From positions 1 to 55,104 of the IMG/VR virus record IMGVR_UViG_3300033571_023918: a DNA stretch of 55,104 bases; one strand, written 5' to 3'. Positions 12,669 through 21,892 of the stretch are shown here, in pieces (the first letter of the stretch is position 1; each line of letters begins with the position of its first letter). Both the position numbers and the translations under genes were made by a program. The notes below the pieces were generated by a model, which was not told where the DNA came from, did no database searches, and saw only the letters and a program-made list of their open reading frames with translations. This stretch comes from a virus.

Positions 12669-15497
12669 ATGTGTCACTCGGTAAAAATTGAAAATATGAT
12701 TGACGAAGAAGTTATCAAGTCATTTTTGGAGGGTAATGACCCTGAAGAATTTATCGTAGCAGTAGAATTTGACTACGCATCCGATTCCATTTATAAAATT
12801 AAAGAAATACCAGGGAAAGGAAAAGAAATCCGTAAGGATACATTCATTCCATTTTGTTGGGTAGGTGACCTTCATAACATGGGTTTTTATCAAAACTCTA
12901 AAGGGTTACAGAAAGAGGCAATGACCAAACATGGTATTGTCATTGAGAAACTCGATACTCACGGTGACCCTCGTATGGAAAAAGGGTTAACCTTTATAGT
13001 TAAATCCCTTAAGGGTTATCGTCATCTTATTCAATTTTTCCGAGAAGGGGGTGCTGACCCATGGGGTGAGAAGTTCCGTGATAAAATTCTTATTCTCCCC
13101 CCCGTTGAGCAATACTTTATCTCAAAAGAAAAACGACTCTTTAAGGGTTATGAAGACTATGACGAGGTAACTCGACTTGTATATGACTTAGAGACAACTT
13201 CACTTGAACCTAAAGATGGTAGAATCTTTATGATTGGTATTAGGACCAACACCGGATTTAACAAGATTATTGAGTGTGTAAATGAGGAAGATGAGGTTAA
13301 AGGTATTGTTGAGTTTTTCAATATTATCAACCAGTTAAAACCTAGTATTATTGGGGGTTACAACTCAGCAAACTTCGATTGGAATTGGTTGTTTGAGAGG
13401 TCTCGTATTTTGGGGATTGATATAAGGAAGGTTTGTAAGTCACTTCACCCTCAACATTCCATTTCTCAAAAGAAGAACATGTTGAAGTTAGCAAACGAGA
13501 TTGAAGATTTTATGCAAACCTCTATTTGGGGTTATAATGTAATTGACATTATCCATGCTGTTAGACGAGCACAGGCAATTAACTCATCAATCAAAAGTGC
13601 TGGTCTTAAGTATATTTCTGAGTTTATCAATGCCAAGGAAGCGGACCGAGTGTACATTAATCACGACAGTATTGGTAAGATGTATACTGAAAACCATGAG
13701 TATTGGTTGAACTTGAAAACTGGCGAATATCGTAAAAAAGGTGATTTTGTGGATTTGGATGTAAAATTCCCTGACACTTATTTGCTTACCAACGGTGTTG
13801 ATATTGTTGAGAGATACCTTCAAGATGACTTGGAGGAAACTTTAAAAGTTGATAAGGAATTCAATCAGGGTTCTTTTCTTCTTGCCTCGATGATTCCCAC
13901 AACTTATGAGAGAGTATCTACTATGGGTACCGCTACTCTATGGAAAATGTTGATGCTTGCCTGGAGTTATAAAAACAATCTCGCAATCCCCGCCAAACAA
14001 GGTAAGACAGACTTCGTAGGAGGTCTCTCACGACTCTTAAAGGTCGGATATTCAAAGGATGTCCTTAAACTCGATTTCTCGTCTCTGTACCCCTCTATTC
14101 AACTCGTACATGATGTTTTTCCTGAGTGTGATGTAACAGGAGCGATGAAAGGTATGTTAAAGTATTTCCGTGACACTCGTATCAAATACAAAGAACTTGC
14201 TGAGGAATTTTACGAAACCGACCGAAAGAAATCTGAATCATACGGAAACAAACAACTCCCTATCAAAATCTTTATTAACTCTATGTTCGGTGCACTCTCT
14301 GCTCCACAGGTATTTGCATGGGGGGACATGTATATGGGTGAGCAAATCACCTGTACTGGTCGTCAATATCTTCGTCAAATGATTAAGTTCTTTATGGCTC
14401 GTGGTTACACCCCCCTTGTAATGGATACGGACGGTGTGAACTTTTCCCTACCTGAGGGTGCAAAGTCTCGCAGTTATGTTGGTCGTGGATTAAATTGGAA
14501 GGTAAAACTTGGTAAGGTCTATGAGGGTCCTGAAGCGGATGTTGCAGAATACAATGACATCTTTATGAGGGGAGAAATGGCTTTGGATACCGATGGTGTA
14601 TGGCCATCGTGTATTAACCTTGCTCGTAAGAACTATGCGGTTATGGATTATAAGGGTAAAATCAAACTTACCGGTAATTCCATTAAATCTAAGAAACTTC
14701 CCGGTTACATCGAAAAATTTTTGGACAAAGGTATCAAGATGTTATTGGAGGGTAATGGTAAGGAGTTTGTGGATTACTACTATGAATACTTAGAGAAGAT
14801 TTACAACCAACAGATTCCTCTTGCTCAAATTGCTCAGAAAGCTAAAGTTAAACAGACCCTTGAGGATTACAAGGTTCGGTGTACACAGACCACAAAAGCG
14901 GGGTCTTTGATGTCCCGTCAAGCACATATGGAACTTGCCATTCACCATAAAATGAATGTAAACTTGGGGGATTTGATTATGTATGTTAACAACGGTGAGA
15001 AAGCATCTCATGGTGATGTTCAAAAGGTTCCTGCTAAGAGGTACTCCGACCTTCAAAAGAAACGAATCTTTGAAAAAACGGGTGAGGTTCTTCAAGATGT
15101 CGCCTCATACATTAACCTTAATTGTTATATTCTGAATCCTGATGACCTCGAAAACAATCCCGAGATGACGGGGGATTACAATGTAGCTCGAGCTGTTACA
15201 ACATTTAACAAAAGAATTGAACCTCTTTTGGTTTGTTTTAAGGATGAAGTTCGTAAGGAATTGATTGTAAATAATCCTGAGGATATGGGTATATTCACCC
15301 ACACACAATGTGAGTTAATTAACGGATACCCTATGGGTCTTGGTGACCAAGACGAATTGGATGAGGTAATGACTTTATCTGATGGTGAGATAAGATATTG
15401 GGAAAAGAGAGGTCTTTCAGAAAATTATATCTATGATTTTGCAGAAGAAGGTTGGCAACAGTATATTTACAACTATGAAACTGAAAGACATAGTTAA
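12669..15497 (+). CDS. 43: Family B DNA polymerase (T4 gp43-like)
   Basis: This is the replicative polymerase with 3'-5' proofreading, 942 residues from this ATG. Exonuclease motif I, YDLETTS, lies at about 172-178, and exo II, GGYNSANFDWNW, follows near 235. Polymerase motif A, LDFSSLYPSIQL, is near 468-479, motif B, KIFINSMFGALSAP, near 533, and motif C, MDTDGVNFS, near 585. All catalytic acids are present. Length is close to T4 gp43. The start is uncertain: the frame is open back to a TTG at 12657, and another ATG lies at 12696. I chose 12669 because GGAAG lies just before it. The downstream HsdS-like gene starts inside the polymerase 3' end, so the two are probably translated together. 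Polymerase clamp and loader genes are not in this window. Confidence 0.95.
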   Translation: MCHSVKIENMIDEEVIKSFLEGNDPEEFIVAVEFDYASDSIYKIKEIPGKGKEIRKDTFIPFCWVGDLHNMGFYQNSKGLQKEAMTKHGIVIEKLDTHGDPRMEKGLTFIVKSLKGYRHLIQFFREGGADPWGEKFRDKILILPPVEQYFISKEKRLFKGYEDYDEVTRLVYDLETTSLEPKDGRIFMIGIRTNTGFNKIIECVNEEDEVKGIVEFFNIINQLKPSIIGGYNSANFDWNWLFERSRILGIDIRKVCKSLHPQHSISQKKNMLKLANEIEDFMQTSIWGYNVIDIIHAVRRAQAINSSIKSAGLKYISEFINAKEADRVYINHDSIGKMYTENHEYWLNLKTGEYRKKGDFVDLDVKFPDTYLLTNGVDIVERYLQDDLEETLKVDKEFNQGSFLLASMIPTTYERVSTMGTATLWKMLMLAWSYKNNLAIPAKQGKTDFVGGLSRLLKVGYSKDVLKLDFSSLYPSIQLVHDVFPECDVTGAMKGMLKYFRDTRIKYKELAEEFYETDRKKSESYGNKQLPIKIFINSMFGALSAPQVFAWGDMYMGEQITCTGRQYLRQMIKFFMARGYTPLVMDTDGVNFSLPEGAKSRSYVGRGLNWKVKLGKVYEGPEADVAEYNDIFMRGEMALDTDGVWPSCINLARKNYAVMDYKGKIKLTGNSIKSKKLPGYIEKFLDKGIKMLLEGNGKEFVDYYYEYLEKIYNQQIPLAQIAQKAKVKQTLEDYKVRCTQTTKAGSLMSRQAHMELAIHHKMNVNLGDLIMYVNNGEKASHGDVQKVPAKRYSDLQKKRIFEKTGEVLQDVASYINLNCYILNPDDLENNPEMTGDYNVARAVTTFNKRIEPLLVCFKDEVRKELIVNNPEDMGIFTHTQCELINGYPMGLGDQDELDEVMTLSDGEIRYWEKRGLSENYIYDFAEEGWQQYIYNYETERHS

Positions 15498-16091: not shown

Positions 16092-16481
16092 TTATTCGTT
16101 TAAATCTACATATATTTCCCACTCAGTATCCATACGACCTTTTACATTATCTGCGTTTAACTTATTAATAAGAATTCCAACCCAAAGGTTAGGATAATTT
16201 TGAGAATTCGACATTTTGAGATTTTTAGTAATTATATTCTTGGAAAAAATTTCGGACAATGTGTTTTCGGCCTCATCCAAGTCTTTTGCCATTTGTTGGT
16301 ATTCAACACCATCAAAATCTTGAGTTGTTTTTATCACAAAAGTATATGCAACTAACTCACCTGCTTTGGTGAGGGTTAAAAATAGTTTAGTATCAACTAT
16401 TTTGAAATTGGTATCTATCGATTTAAAAAGATAATCAAAAATTGATTTAAGACGGTCTCTGTTTTCCATATTAAACAACAT
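16092..16481 (-). CDS. Conserved-looking protein of unknown function
   Basis: This 129-residue acidic and basic mixed protein was not recognised. It starts 11 nt inside the preceding virion-type gene (a second ATG at 16469 would avoid the overlap), so it is probably coupled to it. A central strand pair (KLFLTLTKAGELVAYTFVI) and a helix with DLDEAENTLSEIF are visible. The final stretch, ending EWEIYVDLNE, looks like an edge strand. No enzyme motif is evident. Confidence 0.45.
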   Translation of the reverse strand: MLFNMENRDRLKSIFDYLFKSIDTNFKIVDTKLFLTLTKAGELVAYTFVIKTTQDFDGVEYQQMAKDLDEAENTLSEIFSKNIITKNLKMSNSQNYPNLWVGILINKLNADNVKGRMDTEWEIYVDLNE

Positions 16482-17589
16482 AGATTTGTCTTGGCATTGC
16501 TCTAAACTTCATTTGTTTGTTGAGATTTTCTGCCAATAGTGCTTCTTTTTCCATTTGTTTTTCAGGGCGTAGTCTTTCTAACCTTAGTTTCAATTCTTCT
16601 TCTAATTTAGATTTTTCATCCTTGGACTCCGTAGCCAACGACTGATAGTCCATTTGAAGCTCTGAGTCAGGTGTTTTAAGATTTCCTGAATATTTTCCTC
16701 TAACTCTTGATAATGTTTCTTTAGAATATGCGGTAAACCACTTTCTGACCCATTGTTGTGCGGGAACATTTAAGTCTTCCCAAGAAAGTTCTTCGATTGG
16801 AACATCAGACGGTAATTTGATAATGTCAGGATTGTCTTTTATACATTGTGCACGACTGTCCCCATCAACATCATAATACCAATACCAAACAGCTTTGCCG
16901 GTGTAAGAGGAATAATTACTGAACGAAAAGTTTGAACCAGGTGCGTTGTAGAGGGTCACTAATCTTTTACCATCAGGTAATCCCGTAATTTTGTAAGTCA
17001 ACGCCCCACCCAAAATTCTATTAAGAATATTTGCCTCTTGGAATCGAAGTAAATAATCAAAACCGCTTAGCATAAAATAAGAACCCGCATTTCCCATTTG
17101 GGCGTATCCCGCTTGGTTTGCTCCTAATCCCAAACCACCAAACCCATAATCAGTTGTACCAAAAAGAGCTAAGTTCTGAAAAGGTTGATTCGAAAACCAT
17201 AGTAACTCATTTATTTCTCTACCTGCAGGTATTTCGTATGATTGGGTGTTAGCACTTAAAACGAAATAATCCTTTTTCAACACATAAGGACCCGTAGTTT
17301 GTAAACCCACAATCTTAGAGTATGCATATGTAAATTGGTCTTCTAAATTAAAAGTACGGGTAACCAAAGCTCTAGCCACTGATTTCTCGTTCATATTTAG
17401 GTTAACCAAATTAACCCAGTTAGATTCAATAAGCCAATCCAAAGTATATTGTTCATAGTCTTGAATGGATAATTCCATCAAGGAGTCCAACATTTCATCT
17501 TCGAGTTCTACAGCTCTCAGAGGGGCACCAAGTTGGTGACGAAGTCGTGTATAAATTCTACTTCTTTCGGGTTCAGGTAATACAGCCAT
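16471..17589 (-). CDS. Virion structural protein (head-tail connector candidate)
   Basis: This 372-residue protein opens with PERSRIYTRLRHQLGAPLRAVEL and is followed by a helical section to about 100, as expected for a connector or neck protein. The middle (about 105-250) is rich in Gly, Tyr, Phe and strands. The C-terminal 80 residues form a charged helix (SKLEEELKLRLERLRPEKQMEKEAL), likely a coiled coil. I recognise the overall type from T4-like marine phages but cannot assign a T4 gene number. A TATTTAT element in the minus orientation lies 4 nt before the ATG, which suggests late expression. Confidence 0.55.
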   Translation of the reverse strand: MAVLPEPERSRIYTRLRHQLGAPLRAVELEDEMLDSLMELSIQDYEQYTLDWLIESNWVNLVNLNMNEKSVARALVTRTFNLEDQFTYAYSKIVGLQTTGPYVLKKDYFVLSANTQSYEIPAGREINELLWFSNQPFQNLALFGTTDYGFGGLGLGANQAGYAQMGNAGSYFMLSGFDYLLRFQEANILNRILGGALTYKITGLPDGKRLVTLYNAPGSNFSFSNYSSYTGKAVWYWYYDVDGDSRAQCIKDNPDIIKLPSDVPIEELSWEDLNVPAQQWVRKWFTAYSKETLSRVRGKYSGNLKTPDSELQMDYQSLATESKDEKSKLEEELKLRLERLRPEKQMEKEALLAENLNKQMKFRAMPRQIYVV

Positions 17590-17606: not shown

Positions 17607-19133
17607 TTATCTCAAATCGTATATCATTTGTGTTTTCTCAAAAACATAGTTTCCCATGACAATTTCACCTTTGTTTTCAAAGACGACCACTTTTTTACCC
17701 TTAACAAATACCATCCAATCAACATTGTATTTTGCAACTTCACCAGTCTTGGTCACAACCAAACGACCGTTTTGTTCTAAAATCTCATCGAACCCTTTTA
17801 CCTGTGCAGTAAGTTTCGAGTTTTCGACAACTATTTCCATGTCTATTTTTTGAATTGCGTCTTTGGTTTTTCCAGCACCTGCTGTCACAATTACCTTAGC
17901 GTTTGGAATACTCTCTTGAAGACGAACCTGTGCCATATTTTCTCTACGGGTACCAACATTATCCTTCTCTTTGAGGGTATTCATAATAGAATGGAATGTT
18001 TGACTGTTTGGGTCAAAAATTCTTGAACTAAATTGTTCGATGTAGTTACAGAGTCTTTTCATTTCTGAGATTTGTTCTGCAGGGGTCTTCCCTTCGAAGT
18101 TCACAGATTTTTCCTTGAGTGACTTGGTAATAACTCTATTTAAATCTCTTACCATAATACAAAAGACGGAATAGTTAGTGTTCATATAATTAATGACACT
18201 ACGACCCGGTTTTTCTAAATCGTAAACTCCGGGTATTTCACCATTCTCCCTTTTGTTGTGGTAGTTGTCAGCAAAGAGGTTTCTAAGAATATCATTAATT
18301 GTGTTCTTATAGATGTCTCTTGCGCGTAGGTTGTTGTTGAACAACACTCTGAAGAATTCTACTTCCCCCCTTGTACACGATTCTGATTTTGTTTCCATTA
18401 GTATCTTACCCATTTCTTGTGACTCCAATAACTTGGTTTGTGTTTTGAGTGTATACATATCTCCCACAAAGTCCCAATTGACCACGGTCCAAAAGTTTTT
18501 GATATACTCATCTCTTTTGTTTTTGTATTTGAGGTAGTATGCATGTTCCCACAAATCTAAGCCCAAAATTGGATATCCGCCGCCTTCAATTACATTCATC
18601 AATGGATTATCTTGATTTGGAGTTGACATTATCTTTAGGGTTCCTTTGTTGGTAAGGATTAACCACACCCATCCTGAACCGAATCTTTGTATGGCAACTT
18701 CTTCGAATTGTTTTTTGAACTTCTCGAACGTTCCAAAATCTTTTTTAATTTGTTGAAGTAACTCTTTACCGATTCTTTGTGGTTGGGGGGATAACATATT
18801 CCAAAAAAGTGCGTGGTTAAATGCACCCCCTGCGTTATCTCTTACTCCTTTAGGGTATTTTGAAATACCTCTGATTATTTTTTCGAGGTCGTGGTCTCCC
18901 TTTCTCTTTGACAGTAAGTTGTTGAGTTTATCCACATAACCTTTGTAGTGTTTGTTGTAGTGGACATTCATGGTTTCGGAATCTATGAATCTTTTTACCG
19001 CAGAGTAACTGTAGGGTAATTTTTCTATTCCGATTTTTTTTCCTTCTTGTAAAAGTTCTTTGGCTTGTTCTCTTTTTTGTTCGTGAAGAATTTGTTTTTC
19101 AATCTTCTCTACCGATTCTTGTATGTGTTGCAT
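17607..19133 (-). CDS. Mn-type superoxide dismutase fused to a PD-(D/E)XK-like domain
   Basis: This 508-residue protein has two parts. Residues about 36-235 are an Fe/Mn superoxide dismutase, which converts superoxide to peroxide and oxygen. The metal ligands are all present: H58 (NVHYNKHY), H107 (GAFNHALFW), and D193 and H197 (GLDLWEHAYY). GSGWVWL, NQDNPLM with Q174 and NFWTVVNW are also there; Q174 with the AGG before F-NH points to the Mn type. Residues 236-508 are not SOD. They include a helical stretch with E399 and E406 and then KIDMEIVVENSKLTAQVK, in which D431 and Q444-x-K446 fit a PD-(D/E)XK nuclease core, ending in strands (VDWMVFVKGKKVVVFENKG). A TATTTAT element lies 18 nt before the start. 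The nuclease assignment is inference; the SOD assignment is firm. Confidence 0.85.
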   Translation of the reverse strand: MQHIQESVEKIEKQILHEQKREQAKELLQEGKKIGIEKLPYSYSAVKRFIDSETMNVHYNKHYKGYVDKLNNLLSKRKGDHDLEKIIRGISKYPKGVRDNAGGAFNHALFWNMLSPQPQRIGKELLQQIKKDFGTFEKFKKQFEEVAIQRFGSGWVWLILTNKGTLKIMSTPNQDNPLMNVIEGGGYPILGLDLWEHAYYLKYKNKRDEYIKNFWTVVNWDFVGDMYTLKTQTKLLESQEMGKILMETKSESCTRGEVEFFRVLFNNNLRARDIYKNTINDILRNLFADNYHNKRENGEIPGVYDLEKPGRSVINYMNTNYSVFCIMVRDLNRVITKSLKEKSVNFEGKTPAEQISEMKRLCNYIEQFSSRIFDPNSQTFHSIMNTLKEKDNVGTRRENMAQVRLQESIPNAKVIVTAGAGKTKDAIQKIDMEIVVENSKLTAQVKGFDEILEQNGRLVVTKTGEVAKYNVDWMVFVKGKKVVVFENKGEIVMGNYVFEKTQMIYDLR

Positions 19134-19173: not shown

Positions 19174-20928
19174 TTATCTCCTTTGATTTATACTCTTTAA
19201 AATTTCTTCAACAATATTTGTCTCATCCGAGGTATCACCCATAACTGTGGCTATTATTCTTTTTTTATTGTTTAATATGTCGTAGATGATACCCTCAATT
19301 GTATTTTCGAAAATTGGGTAGTACACCAAAACATTATTTTTTTGTCCGTATCTGTATGCCCTATCTTCGGACTGACTGTGGTCTGAAGGAAGAAATGAAA
19401 GGTCATTCATAATAACAGCTTCGGCTGCGGTTAGGGTAATTCCCACGCCAGCAGCCTTGATGTTACCAACAAACACTTTTACATTATCATCTTCTTGAAA
19501 CCTATCTACGGAATCCTGTCTTTGGGTCTTATTCATTGAACCATCTAACCTCACAGCACTTTTACCAAAGTGATTGACGATTGTTTCAAGTGACTTTGTA
19601 AAATTACAAAAGATGATAACTTTTTTTCCTTGTTCGACAATGTTTTCCGCAAGTTCAATTGTGTGTTGAGTTTTTTCCTCGGCAATTACCTGTCTTACCT
19701 GAGTTAGTTTGGTGAACTGAATTGAAAGGTTTTTACTTTCCTCAGGATTTTTTTCATACCAATTGTAATAATCTCCCATAACCTCTTCGTAAAGTTTTGA
19801 ACGAAGACGAAGGTATACAGGAGTGATAATTTTTTCAGGTAAGTCCAATACATCTTCTTTTAATCTTCTAAGGACAGATGCCCCGGTTCGGTCTCTTAAT
19901 TCTTCCAAGTTGGATGCACCCATCACATTCCAAACTTTTCTTGGACCAACCCTGAACTGATATCCCGAACAATATCTAACAACATACGCCATCCAATTTT
20001 TAGCAACGGGTGAATCAACCAACGACAAAAGATTGAAATAGTTAATCGGTCGAGAGGTCATAGGGGTTCCCGTTAATAACCACAATCGGTCGATGTCTCT
20101 AACCAAGTCGTTGATTAGTTTGGTTCTTTGAGCTTGTACATTTTGAATGTAGTGTGCCTCATCGATGATAACTAAATCGAAATTGGACTTCATAATTATC
20201 GAGTTCTTTCTGTCTTTTGAATCGTGGAAATTTTTGATAATGTCGTAATTCATAATCACAATATCAGATTCTTCAGAATAGTTTTTGCCCTCACAGACAT
20301 AACTTGTTTTTTCAGAGTAGAGTTGATATTCTCTTTGCCAATTAATTTTCAGAGAGGCAGGACAGATTATCAAAATCTTTTTTGCCCCCATTTCTAATGA
20401 TGCGATAATTGTCGAGGTAGTTTTTCCCAAACCCATATCATCCGCCAAGATGTACTTCTTATTTTTAAGGAGTTCTTCGATGGCAACCTTTTGGTGTTCA
20501 AGGGGAGGACGATGTGAATATTTTGTGTAATCAACTTCGGCAATTTCAACTTTGTTATCTTTGATAATTGCTACCTTAGGAACCCACATCTCCGTCAAGG
20601 GGTCTTCCTCAGAGAATTTACCCCAAATGTGGTAGGCTTTGTCTTTTTCTGCCAACAATTTTTCAATCCAAATCTTTTCGGGAATTGTCATCATTAATCT
20701 CTCATCGGCAATCTTATTAGCAAAATAAGAATCCAAGACAACCCACTTCTTTGCTACAAGTGGGGTCTTAGAATGATTATTAATGATGTATTCTGATTGA
20801 CTACGCGTGGGGTAAAACTTGGAGTTTTTGTCAAGTTTGACTTTTAACCCCAAGATATAGTTGTTAGCCCCCGAGTAGTTCTCCAATATGGAGATGGCTT
20901 TGGATTCTATTGTTAGTCCAACCGACAT
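19174..20928 (-). CDS. SNF2-family DNA helicase/translocase
   Basis: This 584-residue superfamily 2 ATPase has all the main motifs in order. They are motif I, ADDMGLGKTT (162-171), motif II, IIDEAH (254-259), motif III, LLTGTPM (284-290), motif IV, KVIIFCNFTKS, motif V, AAGVGITLTAA, and motif VI, SEDRAYRYGQ. The last, with Gln in YGQ, is SNF2-type (HepA/SMARCAL1-like). The 130-residue N-terminal region is not recognised. Such enzymes move along duplex DNA, remodel protein-DNA complexes or anneal strands. The start codon shares one base with the stop of the SET gene, so the pair is translationally coupled. No late element precedes the pair, which points to early or middle expression. Confidence 0.9.
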   Translation of the reverse strand: MSVGLTIESKAISILENYSGANNYILGLKVKLDKNSKFYPTRSQSEYIINNHSKTPLVAKKWVVLDSYFANKIADERLMMTIPEKIWIEKLLAEKDKAYHIWGKFSEEDPLTEMWVPKVAIIKDNKVEIAEVDYTKYSHRPPLEHQKVAIEELLKNKKYILADDMGLGKTTSTIIASLEMGAKKILIICPASLKINWQREYQLYSEKTSYVCEGKNYSEESDIVIMNYDIIKNFHDSKDRKNSIIMKSNFDLVIIDEAHYIQNVQAQRTKLINDLVRDIDRLWLLTGTPMTSRPINYFNLLSLVDSPVAKNWMAYVVRYCSGYQFRVGPRKVWNVMGASNLEELRDRTGASVLRRLKEDVLDLPEKIITPVYLRLRSKLYEEVMGDYYNWYEKNPEESKNLSIQFTKLTQVRQVIAEEKTQHTIELAENIVEQGKKVIIFCNFTKSLETIVNHFGKSAVRLDGSMNKTQRQDSVDRFQEDDNVKVFVGNIKAAGVGITLTAAEAVIMNDLSFLPSDHSQSEDRAYRYGQKNNVLVYYPIFENTIEGIIYDILNNKKRIIATVMGDTSDETNIVEEILKSINQRR

Positions 20929-21323
20929 TATTTTCCTTCAACCTTCGTTTGCTCGTCGAACCAGTAAGTTTCTGGTCCGTAGTAAACGAAGATTTCCTCA
21001 CCAGGTTTGATGTCCGTAAGGGCGGTAAACATAAAAGTCATGTTTTCTAAATTGTTGTTCCATTCTGCATTGGGGTTATCCGAGTGGTTGTAATACGATG
21101 CGTATCCCATAGCAACAACATGACTATGCCATCCTTCTCCTTTAGGCCATGCAAATCGATAGTTTGAAAACAAAGGACTACTCTCTCCTGGCTCGATAGG
21201 TAGTCTCATGATTGGGCTCTCTTCGATGACTTCACCTTTTTTTATTTTTTTTGTTGCAAAGATGCCTAATCCATGAACATCACTAGATTTTAATGTAATC
21301 TTTGAGGGTAAAATAAGTTCCAT
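20928..21323 (-). CDS. SET-domain protein (putative protein lysine methyltransferase)
   Basis: This 131-residue protein is almost a minimal SET domain. It has the N-terminal HGLGIFATKKIKKGEVI (G18 and G20 of the S-adenosylmethionine loop), the knot motif YYNHSDNPN (N79, H80, S81, P84, N85), and the C-terminal KPGEEIFVYYG with Y114 and Y115. SET enzymes transfer methyl groups from S-adenosylmethionine to lysines. Post-SET cysteines are absent, as in other small bacterial and viral members. It is the first gene of the minus-strand block and overlaps the SNF2 gene by one base. The substrate is unknown; a phage or host DNA-binding protein would fit the linkage. Confidence 0.85.
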   Translation of the reverse strand: MELILPSKITLKSSDVHGLGIFATKKIKKGEVIEESPIMRLPIEPGESSPLFSNYRFAWPKGEGWHSHVVAMGYASYYNHSDNPNAEWNNNLENMTFMFTALTDIKPGEEIFVYYGPETYWFDEQTKVEGK

Positions 21324-21376
21324 AATTTTTTATTTAAAATATAAATTAAAAAGAGGTATTTATCAATATAACTACT
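21324..21376. promoter_or_regulatory. Divergent promoter region between SET and neck genes
   Basis: This A/T-rich 53-nt gap separates diverging units. A TATTTAT element at 21357-21363 faces the plus-strand neck gene. On the minus strand only generic A/T-rich sequence is seen. Confidence 0.5.
21357..21363 (+). promoter_or_regulatory. Candidate late promoter element TATTTAT
   Basis: The heptamer lies 13 nt before the ATG at 21377, which heads the long plus-strand tail unit. Confidence 0.4.
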
Positions 21377-21892
21377 ATGGCAGAGAAATTAGTTCCAATT
21401 ACGCGGTTAGGTAAGTTCTTCGGTGCGGAGGATTATAACCTTGATATTTCTATGGGTCAAGAATGGTTAGAAGGTGATATGAACTTTACTGTGGTATTGT
21501 ATCGTATCGATAGATACCGTACTCGTATCGATGATGTATATGGAGAATCACCAGAGGGAGGTATTCAGTTCCTTGCTCCTGTTGAACTAAAGGGTTATGT
21601 TCAAATCTTAGCCCCCACCGCTCAGAGACTCGGTACATCTCGTGTAGAACAAAACGAGCCAGGTAATATGAGGTTTTCAATTTACCGCGCTTACTTGGAA
21701 GAATTGGGTGTTGATATTCAAATGGGTGATTACTTTGGGTATTATGAATCCGAAGATAAAGTTAGGTACTATACCGTATCTGACGATGGTCGTGTTGTGT
21801 CTGACAATAAACACACTTATGGAGGTTACAAACCGTTCTACAGAACAATCATTGCAACCCCAACAAGTCAAAATGAATTTTACGGTACATAA
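21377..21892 (+). CDS. Head-tail junction (neck) structural protein
   Basis: This 171-residue protein has no enzyme motif. Strands dominate, for example MNFTVVLYRIDRYRTRID and VELKGYVQILAP, and a section DYFGYYESEDKVRYYTVSDD is of the type found in head-completion proteins. It shares its last stop base with the start of the gp15-like gene. The genes that follow are the tail terminator and sheath, so a neck role (T4 gp13/gp14 region) is likely by synteny. The sequence alone does not prove it. Confidence 0.55.
   Translation: MAEKLVPITRLGKFFGAEDYNLDISMGQEWLEGDMNFTVVLYRIDRYRTRIDDVYGESPEGGIQFLAPVELKGYVQILAPTAQRLGTSRVEQNEPGNMRFSIYRAYLEELGVDIQMGDYFGYYESEDKVRYYTVSDDGRVVSDNKHTYGGYKPFYRTIIATPTSQNEFYGT

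Follow-up and report, generated by a model that had tools for sequence, protein, structure and literature searches.

SET-domain enzymes are known chiefly as writers of eukaryotic chromatin. The viral protein vSET (A612L), encoded by chlorovirus PBCV-1, acts in a eukaryotic alga, where its methylation target is histone H3K27 (reviewed in PMC3089700), Go1-SET of Methanosarcina methylates MC1-alpha (PMC3980110), and a chlamydial SET protein interacts with Hc1/Hc2 (PMC3089700). SET genes have already been annotated in phage genomes, namely, those of the Stenotrophomonas phages Moby and Ps15 (for Ps15, see PMC9025141); a "SET domain" match in PhiSH19 was discarded as an Ig I-set domain. Snf2/Swi2 helicases have been proposed to be UvsW substitutes in jumbo phages by Iyer et al. 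2021 (PMC7824862), in a text that makes no mention of a SET domain. In the literature searched, which lay mostly outside subscription journals, we found only incidental annotations of SET in jumbo phages, phage SET proteins being mentioned only in passing, and nothing describing a family of phage SETs or its clade, slot, or allele swapping.

The window analyzed here (55,104 bases; a virus record in IMG/VR) is a stretch of the genome of a contractile-tailed phage, with genes for sheath, tube, hub, baseplate, and ribonucleotide reductase, and also encodes a DnaB-type helicase, a UvsX-like recombinase, SSB, and a DNA polymerase. The features relevant to the SET gene are as follows:

17607-19133, minus strand: downstream gene, Fe/Mn superoxide dismutase (SOD) fused to a C-terminal domain showing a PD-(D/E)XK-like pattern (PF02777, 6.6e-41; PF00081, 3.9e-20)
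19174-20928, minus strand: SNF2-family SF2 translocase/helicase, 584 aa (PF00176/PF00271, phrog_62, Snf2/Rad54-family matches in the PDB)
20926-20930, minus strand: TAATG, overlap of the SET stop and the SNF2 start at base 20928 (sequence; overlap kept in relatives)
20928-21323, minus strand: stand-alone SET-domain protein, 131 aa (PF00856, PDB relatives, AlphaFold2/Foldseek, invariant core)
21337-21366, minus strand: promoter-like TTGATA-N17-TATATT before SET (fixed-spacing motif in relatives)
21357-21363, plus strand: late-type TATTTAT of the divergent gene, overlapping the SET/SNF2 promoter (motif position)
21377-21892, plus strand: divergent gene with no function assigned, upstream of the sheath gene and forming the upstream flank of the SET slot (adjacent in 80/80 SNF2 loci)

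The SET protein matches PF00856 over the whole domain (E = 2.7e-17; 63.5 bits, versus a curated cut-off of 22.4; domain positions 1 to 105 of 105) and carries the motifs HGLG (residues 17 to 20), NHSxxPN (79 to 85), GEEIFVYYG (108 to 116), and YW (120 to 121). Its sequence-nearest solved structures are Set7 (4e-12) and vSET (2e-9; phmmer against the PDB). An AlphaFold2 model built from 55 phage sequences (mean pLDDT, 88; pTM, 0.80) gave 378 PDB matches at E <= 0.001 in Foldseek, the uppermost all being SET proteins; the best was vSET (3kma_A; TM 0.70/0.86), with Plasmodium PFL0690c and Set7 also ranking high. Across 83 distinct full-length phage SET proteins, all stand-alone and each 121 to 146 aa long, residues S14, H17, G20, F22, G73, Y78, N79, H80, I105, E110, and Y115 are invariant and G18 (92%) and S81 (93%) nearly so. 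The SET core, consisting of G-x-G near the N terminus, NHS, and EExxxxY, is conserved in this set, and the claim of the original prediction that the protein has all the core motifs was confirmed. The protein is of the minimal vSET type, a single domain of about 120 to 135 aa lacking pre-SET cysteines; the window copy has no cysteine at all. Close pairs of SET genes show dN/dS ratios of about 0.03 to 0.3, indicative of purifying selection, and because of its fold, its invariant core, and this selection, we regard the window SET as very probably an active enzyme. A chance origin of the gene is ruled out by the domain E-value, the conservation across phages, and the purifying selection.

The SNF2 protein matches PF00176 (1.4e-26) and PF00271 (8.7e-19), both above their cut-offs, as well as phrog_62, "DNA helicase" (8e-110), and its Walker A (DDMGLGKT) and DEAH motifs are intact, as expected of a SNF2-family member. 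Its PADLOC matches reflect the shared helicase core, at the superfamily level only and below cut-offs, and we ruled it out as a DISARM or Zorya component, the DrmD and ZorD models scoring far below the NCBIfam equivalog cut-off. We found relatives of this protein in 1,813 annotated phage records, versus 8 for SET. Since it is the sole full-length match to phrog_16 (UvsW-type) in 10 related records, the protein is probably replicative, which agrees with the UvsW-substitute proposal cited above; we infer that it serves the phage as a UvsW-like recombination/replication helicase whether or not SET is present.

The stop codon of SET and the start codon of SNF2 share exactly one base, at position 20928, as had been claimed. 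When the SNF2 start is taken to be the in-frame codon closest to the stop of SET, an overlap of -1 or -4 nt is found in 26 of 32 SET-carrying relatives, and translational coupling of the two genes via TAATG is likely. Of 60 unique loci, 45 have a constant offset of 23 nt from TTGATAAATA to TATATTT upstream of the unit (shuffle maximum, 4); in 7 more, TATTATT takes the place of TATATTT at this offset. The element as a whole, TTGATAAATAC-N12-TATATTT (i.e., TTGATA-N17-TATATT), appears to resemble the -33/-7 promoter type of Bacteroidota and precedes the unit in genomes with and without SET alike; in SET-less relatives, it lies directly before SNF2. Searching the window for TTG-N18..21-TAnnTTT within 70 bp yielded only the SET and SSB genes. 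Since the promoter is common to loci with and without SET, SET appears to hold the promoter-proximal place of a pre-existing, non-late helicase unit. The conserved common promoter and the overlapping codons also support the suggestion that the two proteins are made together.

Of the 31 window genes tested, 10, many of them structural, have a different motif, TATTTAT, in the 70 bp before them, at distances of 11 to 44 nt (e.g., 6392, 21357, 23199, 27388, 28881, and 30641 on the plus strand and 17594 and 19152 on the minus strand). The genes behind it include those for sheath, tube, and SOD as well as 16471-17589, and it is probably the late promoter motif of this phage clade. No TATTTAT is present within 70 bp upstream of SET or SNF2 in the window, and of 60 unique related leaders, 57 likewise lack the motif in the 60 bp adjoining the first gene, in agreement with the earlier statement that no late element precedes the pair. 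Judging from these sequence elements, there is a good chance that SET acts early or in mid-infection.

The SOD fusion gene downstream has a late element of its own, with TATTTAT 25 nt upstream, and its product contains the ligand-type motifs NHALFWN and DLWEHAYY. The C-terminal domain shows an E..D..QxK pattern and was modeled with a mean pLDDT of 85; Foldseek returned weak matches to I-Ssp6803I and Hjc resolvases (best E, 1e-3). The 735-kb phage LR756501 encodes a SOD-free homologue of this nuclease-like domain immediately next to, and divergent from, SET (L008:14050-14922, minus strand, and 14992-15390, plus strand), an arrangement that links SET and the nuclease-like domain in two distant phages. 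Neighbors of SET in other phages include GreA, a nucleotide-sugar epimerase, and a lectin-fold virion-like protein.

In order to describe the SET slot, 80 SNF2 loci were sampled irrespective of SET. SET lies upstream of SNF2 in 38 of them and is missing from the other 42, and a homologue of the divergent gene 21377-21892 is found upstream in all 80, with or without SET. SET-less relatives keep SNF2 and the surrounding block, mostly with an empty site of 50 to 100 bp separating the aligned genes. In a few, the site is occupied by another small gene, and a different ORF of about 105 aa was seen between the late gene and SNF2, near 2115-2450 on the minus strand, in L247, L286-L288, L292, and L293. 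On the SNF2 tree, this distribution amounts to 11 gains or losses of SET, at least 9 of which are forced by the starred branches. Divergence is likewise largely uncoupled: among 35 loci with SET, the Spearman correlation with SNF2 divergence is 0.16 for SET and 0.61 for the flanking late gene. Between L250 and L264, the latter a tandem-SET locus, SNF2 is 96% and the flanking late gene 99% identical, versus 37% for SET, and between the window and L217, SET has a synonymous difference of 0.81 and its neighbor SNF2 one of 0.47, suggesting that the SET allele was replaced, beyond merely evolving faster. Tandem SET pairs are present in some genomes. Whole-record searches of SET-less contigs, which are fragments of up to 170 kb, found no SET elsewhere. 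Four relatives with SNF2 have their only SET at another site, which in G020 is about 217 kb from SNF2 along a 295-kb contig, and in the 735-kb phage, which carries SET, no relative of the window SNF2 was detected. The idea that SET and SNF2 form a chromatin-type functional module, part of the original prediction, is not supported, given this decoupling of presence, divergence, and location. Separately, a small gene at 16092-16481 on the minus strand is 25% identical in L005, where both of its neighbors are 90 to 94% identical; it is a second variable slot of the same gene block.

Relatives of SET were found in only 8 annotated phage records, 2 belonging to the 735-kb metagenomic phage (41% identity) and 6 to Stenotrophomonas phage (31 to 32%). 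A scan of IMG/VR, on the other hand, identified at least 223 viral contigs encoding them, which makes SET a common, selected trait. The SET-SNF2 pair, which was to be sought in other phages, is not a single case; it recurs in dozens of related contigs, mostly with overlapping codons. Many SET contigs have the gene order of the window, in which late genes occupy one strand and the opposite strand carries SET, SNF2, SOD, and the genes after them, and because related contigs reach 317 and 321 kb, we consider the clade to be one of jumbo phages. In a tree with bacterial and archaeal SET proteins, the phage proteins cluster together (SH-aLRT, 98), and the cluster also includes a single row from a Bacteroidota metagenome-assembled genome (MAG) contig, on a long branch. 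This row, from a Cryomorphaceae MAG contig (L099:4697-5086), comes from a contig full of small phage-like ORFs that may itself be viral. Many SAR11/alphaproteobacterial single-cell genomes also contain a SET gene, encoding about 150 to 170 aa and placed in a separate clade (L125-L169, genome_contigs).

The hosts are likely Bacteroidota. Shine-Dalgarno-like sites in the window are at chance level (2 of 31 genes; shuffled mean, 1.5), the promoter element is of the TAnnTTT type, and in one viral contig (L057:8437-13110), SET adjoins the gene for a 1,557-aa protein with PKD domains and a CHU_C type IX secretion signal, a feature of Bacteroidota; we infer the hosts from these three observations. 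The 1,557-aa protein is possibly phage encoded and exported by the host type IX secretion system.

Taken together, a reading that we favor by a modest degree is that SET is a facultative, exchangeable protein-lysine methyltransferase, carried as accessory cargo by jumbo myophages and coexpressed with the helicase without being functionally tied to it. A gene for a minimal stand-alone methyltransferase of the vSET/Set7 type would have inserted between an early/middle-type promoter and the SNF2 gene; SET would be transcribed first, the helicase would be translated through the overlapping codons, and SET would methylate a host protein rather than serve a joint remodeling step with SNF2. SET is thus probably an optional weapon or modifier, not half of a chromatin-remodeling machine. 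Genes that mediate host interaction typically turn over and swap alleles at a fixed slot, and for that reason, we give even chances to a host protein being the main target, for takeover of the host or counter-defense; rapid turnover alone is insufficient to identify such a target. More tentatively, and somewhat short of an even chance, SET may constitute a large, monophyletic, diversifying family with which jumbo phages of Bacteroidota methylate a nucleoid, transcription, translation, or immune protein of the bacterium, as an exchangeable device for takeover or counter-defense.

Several alternatives bear on this reading. SET might instead methylate a protein of the phage itself (virion, replisome, or SNF2), tuning assembly or replication without any host target. 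The SETs of L031, L057, and L063, which sit amid glycan/glycosylation and virion-type genes, could point that way, and the window SET is produced together with a replication-type helicase. We nevertheless consider it rather unlikely, given that SNF2 and its block persist in relatives lacking SET, that SET alleles swap between constant flanks, and that none of 58 SNF2 lysine columns is strongly tied to the presence of SET (best Fisher P, 0.0096). A quite unlikely variant, which is a special case within the favored reading, casts SET as a diversified counter-defense factor whose methylating or blocking action is aimed at a variable immune protein of the bacterium; gain, loss, and allele replacement at a fixed slot, the tandem variants, and purifying selection within alleles are all consistent with this, but PADLOC returned no SET match.

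SNF2 proteins in general are able to strip proteins from DNA. In combination with the adjacency of the two genes, their common promoter, and their mostly overlapping codons in relatives with SET, this ability makes conceivable a two-part, chromatin-like takeover module, in which SET would mark a DNA-bound protein that SNF2 then removes or remodels. The overlap, conserved in most genomes with SET, could indeed mean cofunction where both genes are present. The module is very unlikely, however, in view of the decoupling described above; moreover, a Pfam scan matched no reader domain in either SET or SNF2, and a search of 12 related phage records for HU-family proteins came up empty, so that any such nucleoid target would have to come from the host. 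Finally, a truncated SET remnant of 46 aa in L234, together with a short phage SET subtype lacking YW after the motif-IV tyrosine, might suggest that SET is a decaying or inactive relic, which the invariant core of 83 full-length proteins and dN/dS values well below 1 render highly improbable.

Should the favored reading hold, methylation of host-protein lysines by a phage SET would be a mode of takeover of which we found no description in the literature searched. Naturally occurring close relatives with and without SET allow its function to be tested by comparing them, and the bounds of the slot show where further optional genes of these phages may be sought.

How, then, does the phage SET compare with known systems? 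The helicase beside it belongs to the same superfamily as the Snf2/Swi2 helicases of jumbo phages, whether UvsW substitutes or RapA-like. The SET of Moby, at about 32% identity and about 103 aa, lies amid small genes and has no SNF2 beside it. Go1-SET and the chlamydial SET are prokaryotic proteins that act on or bind DNA-binding proteins; the phage SETs group in a clade of their own. The closest solved eukaryotic SETs by both sequence and fold, Set7 of Schizosaccharomyces pombe and PFL0690c of Plasmodium, differ in being cellular proteins, named histone methyltransferases by their depositors, with about 25 to 31% identity. Closest in predicted fold is vSET, likewise a minimal single-domain viral SET and the top Foldseek and second phmmer match. 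Bacteria lack histone H3, however, and unlike vSET, the SET described here is encoded by a tailed phage of bacteria, in which it is facultative and swappable.
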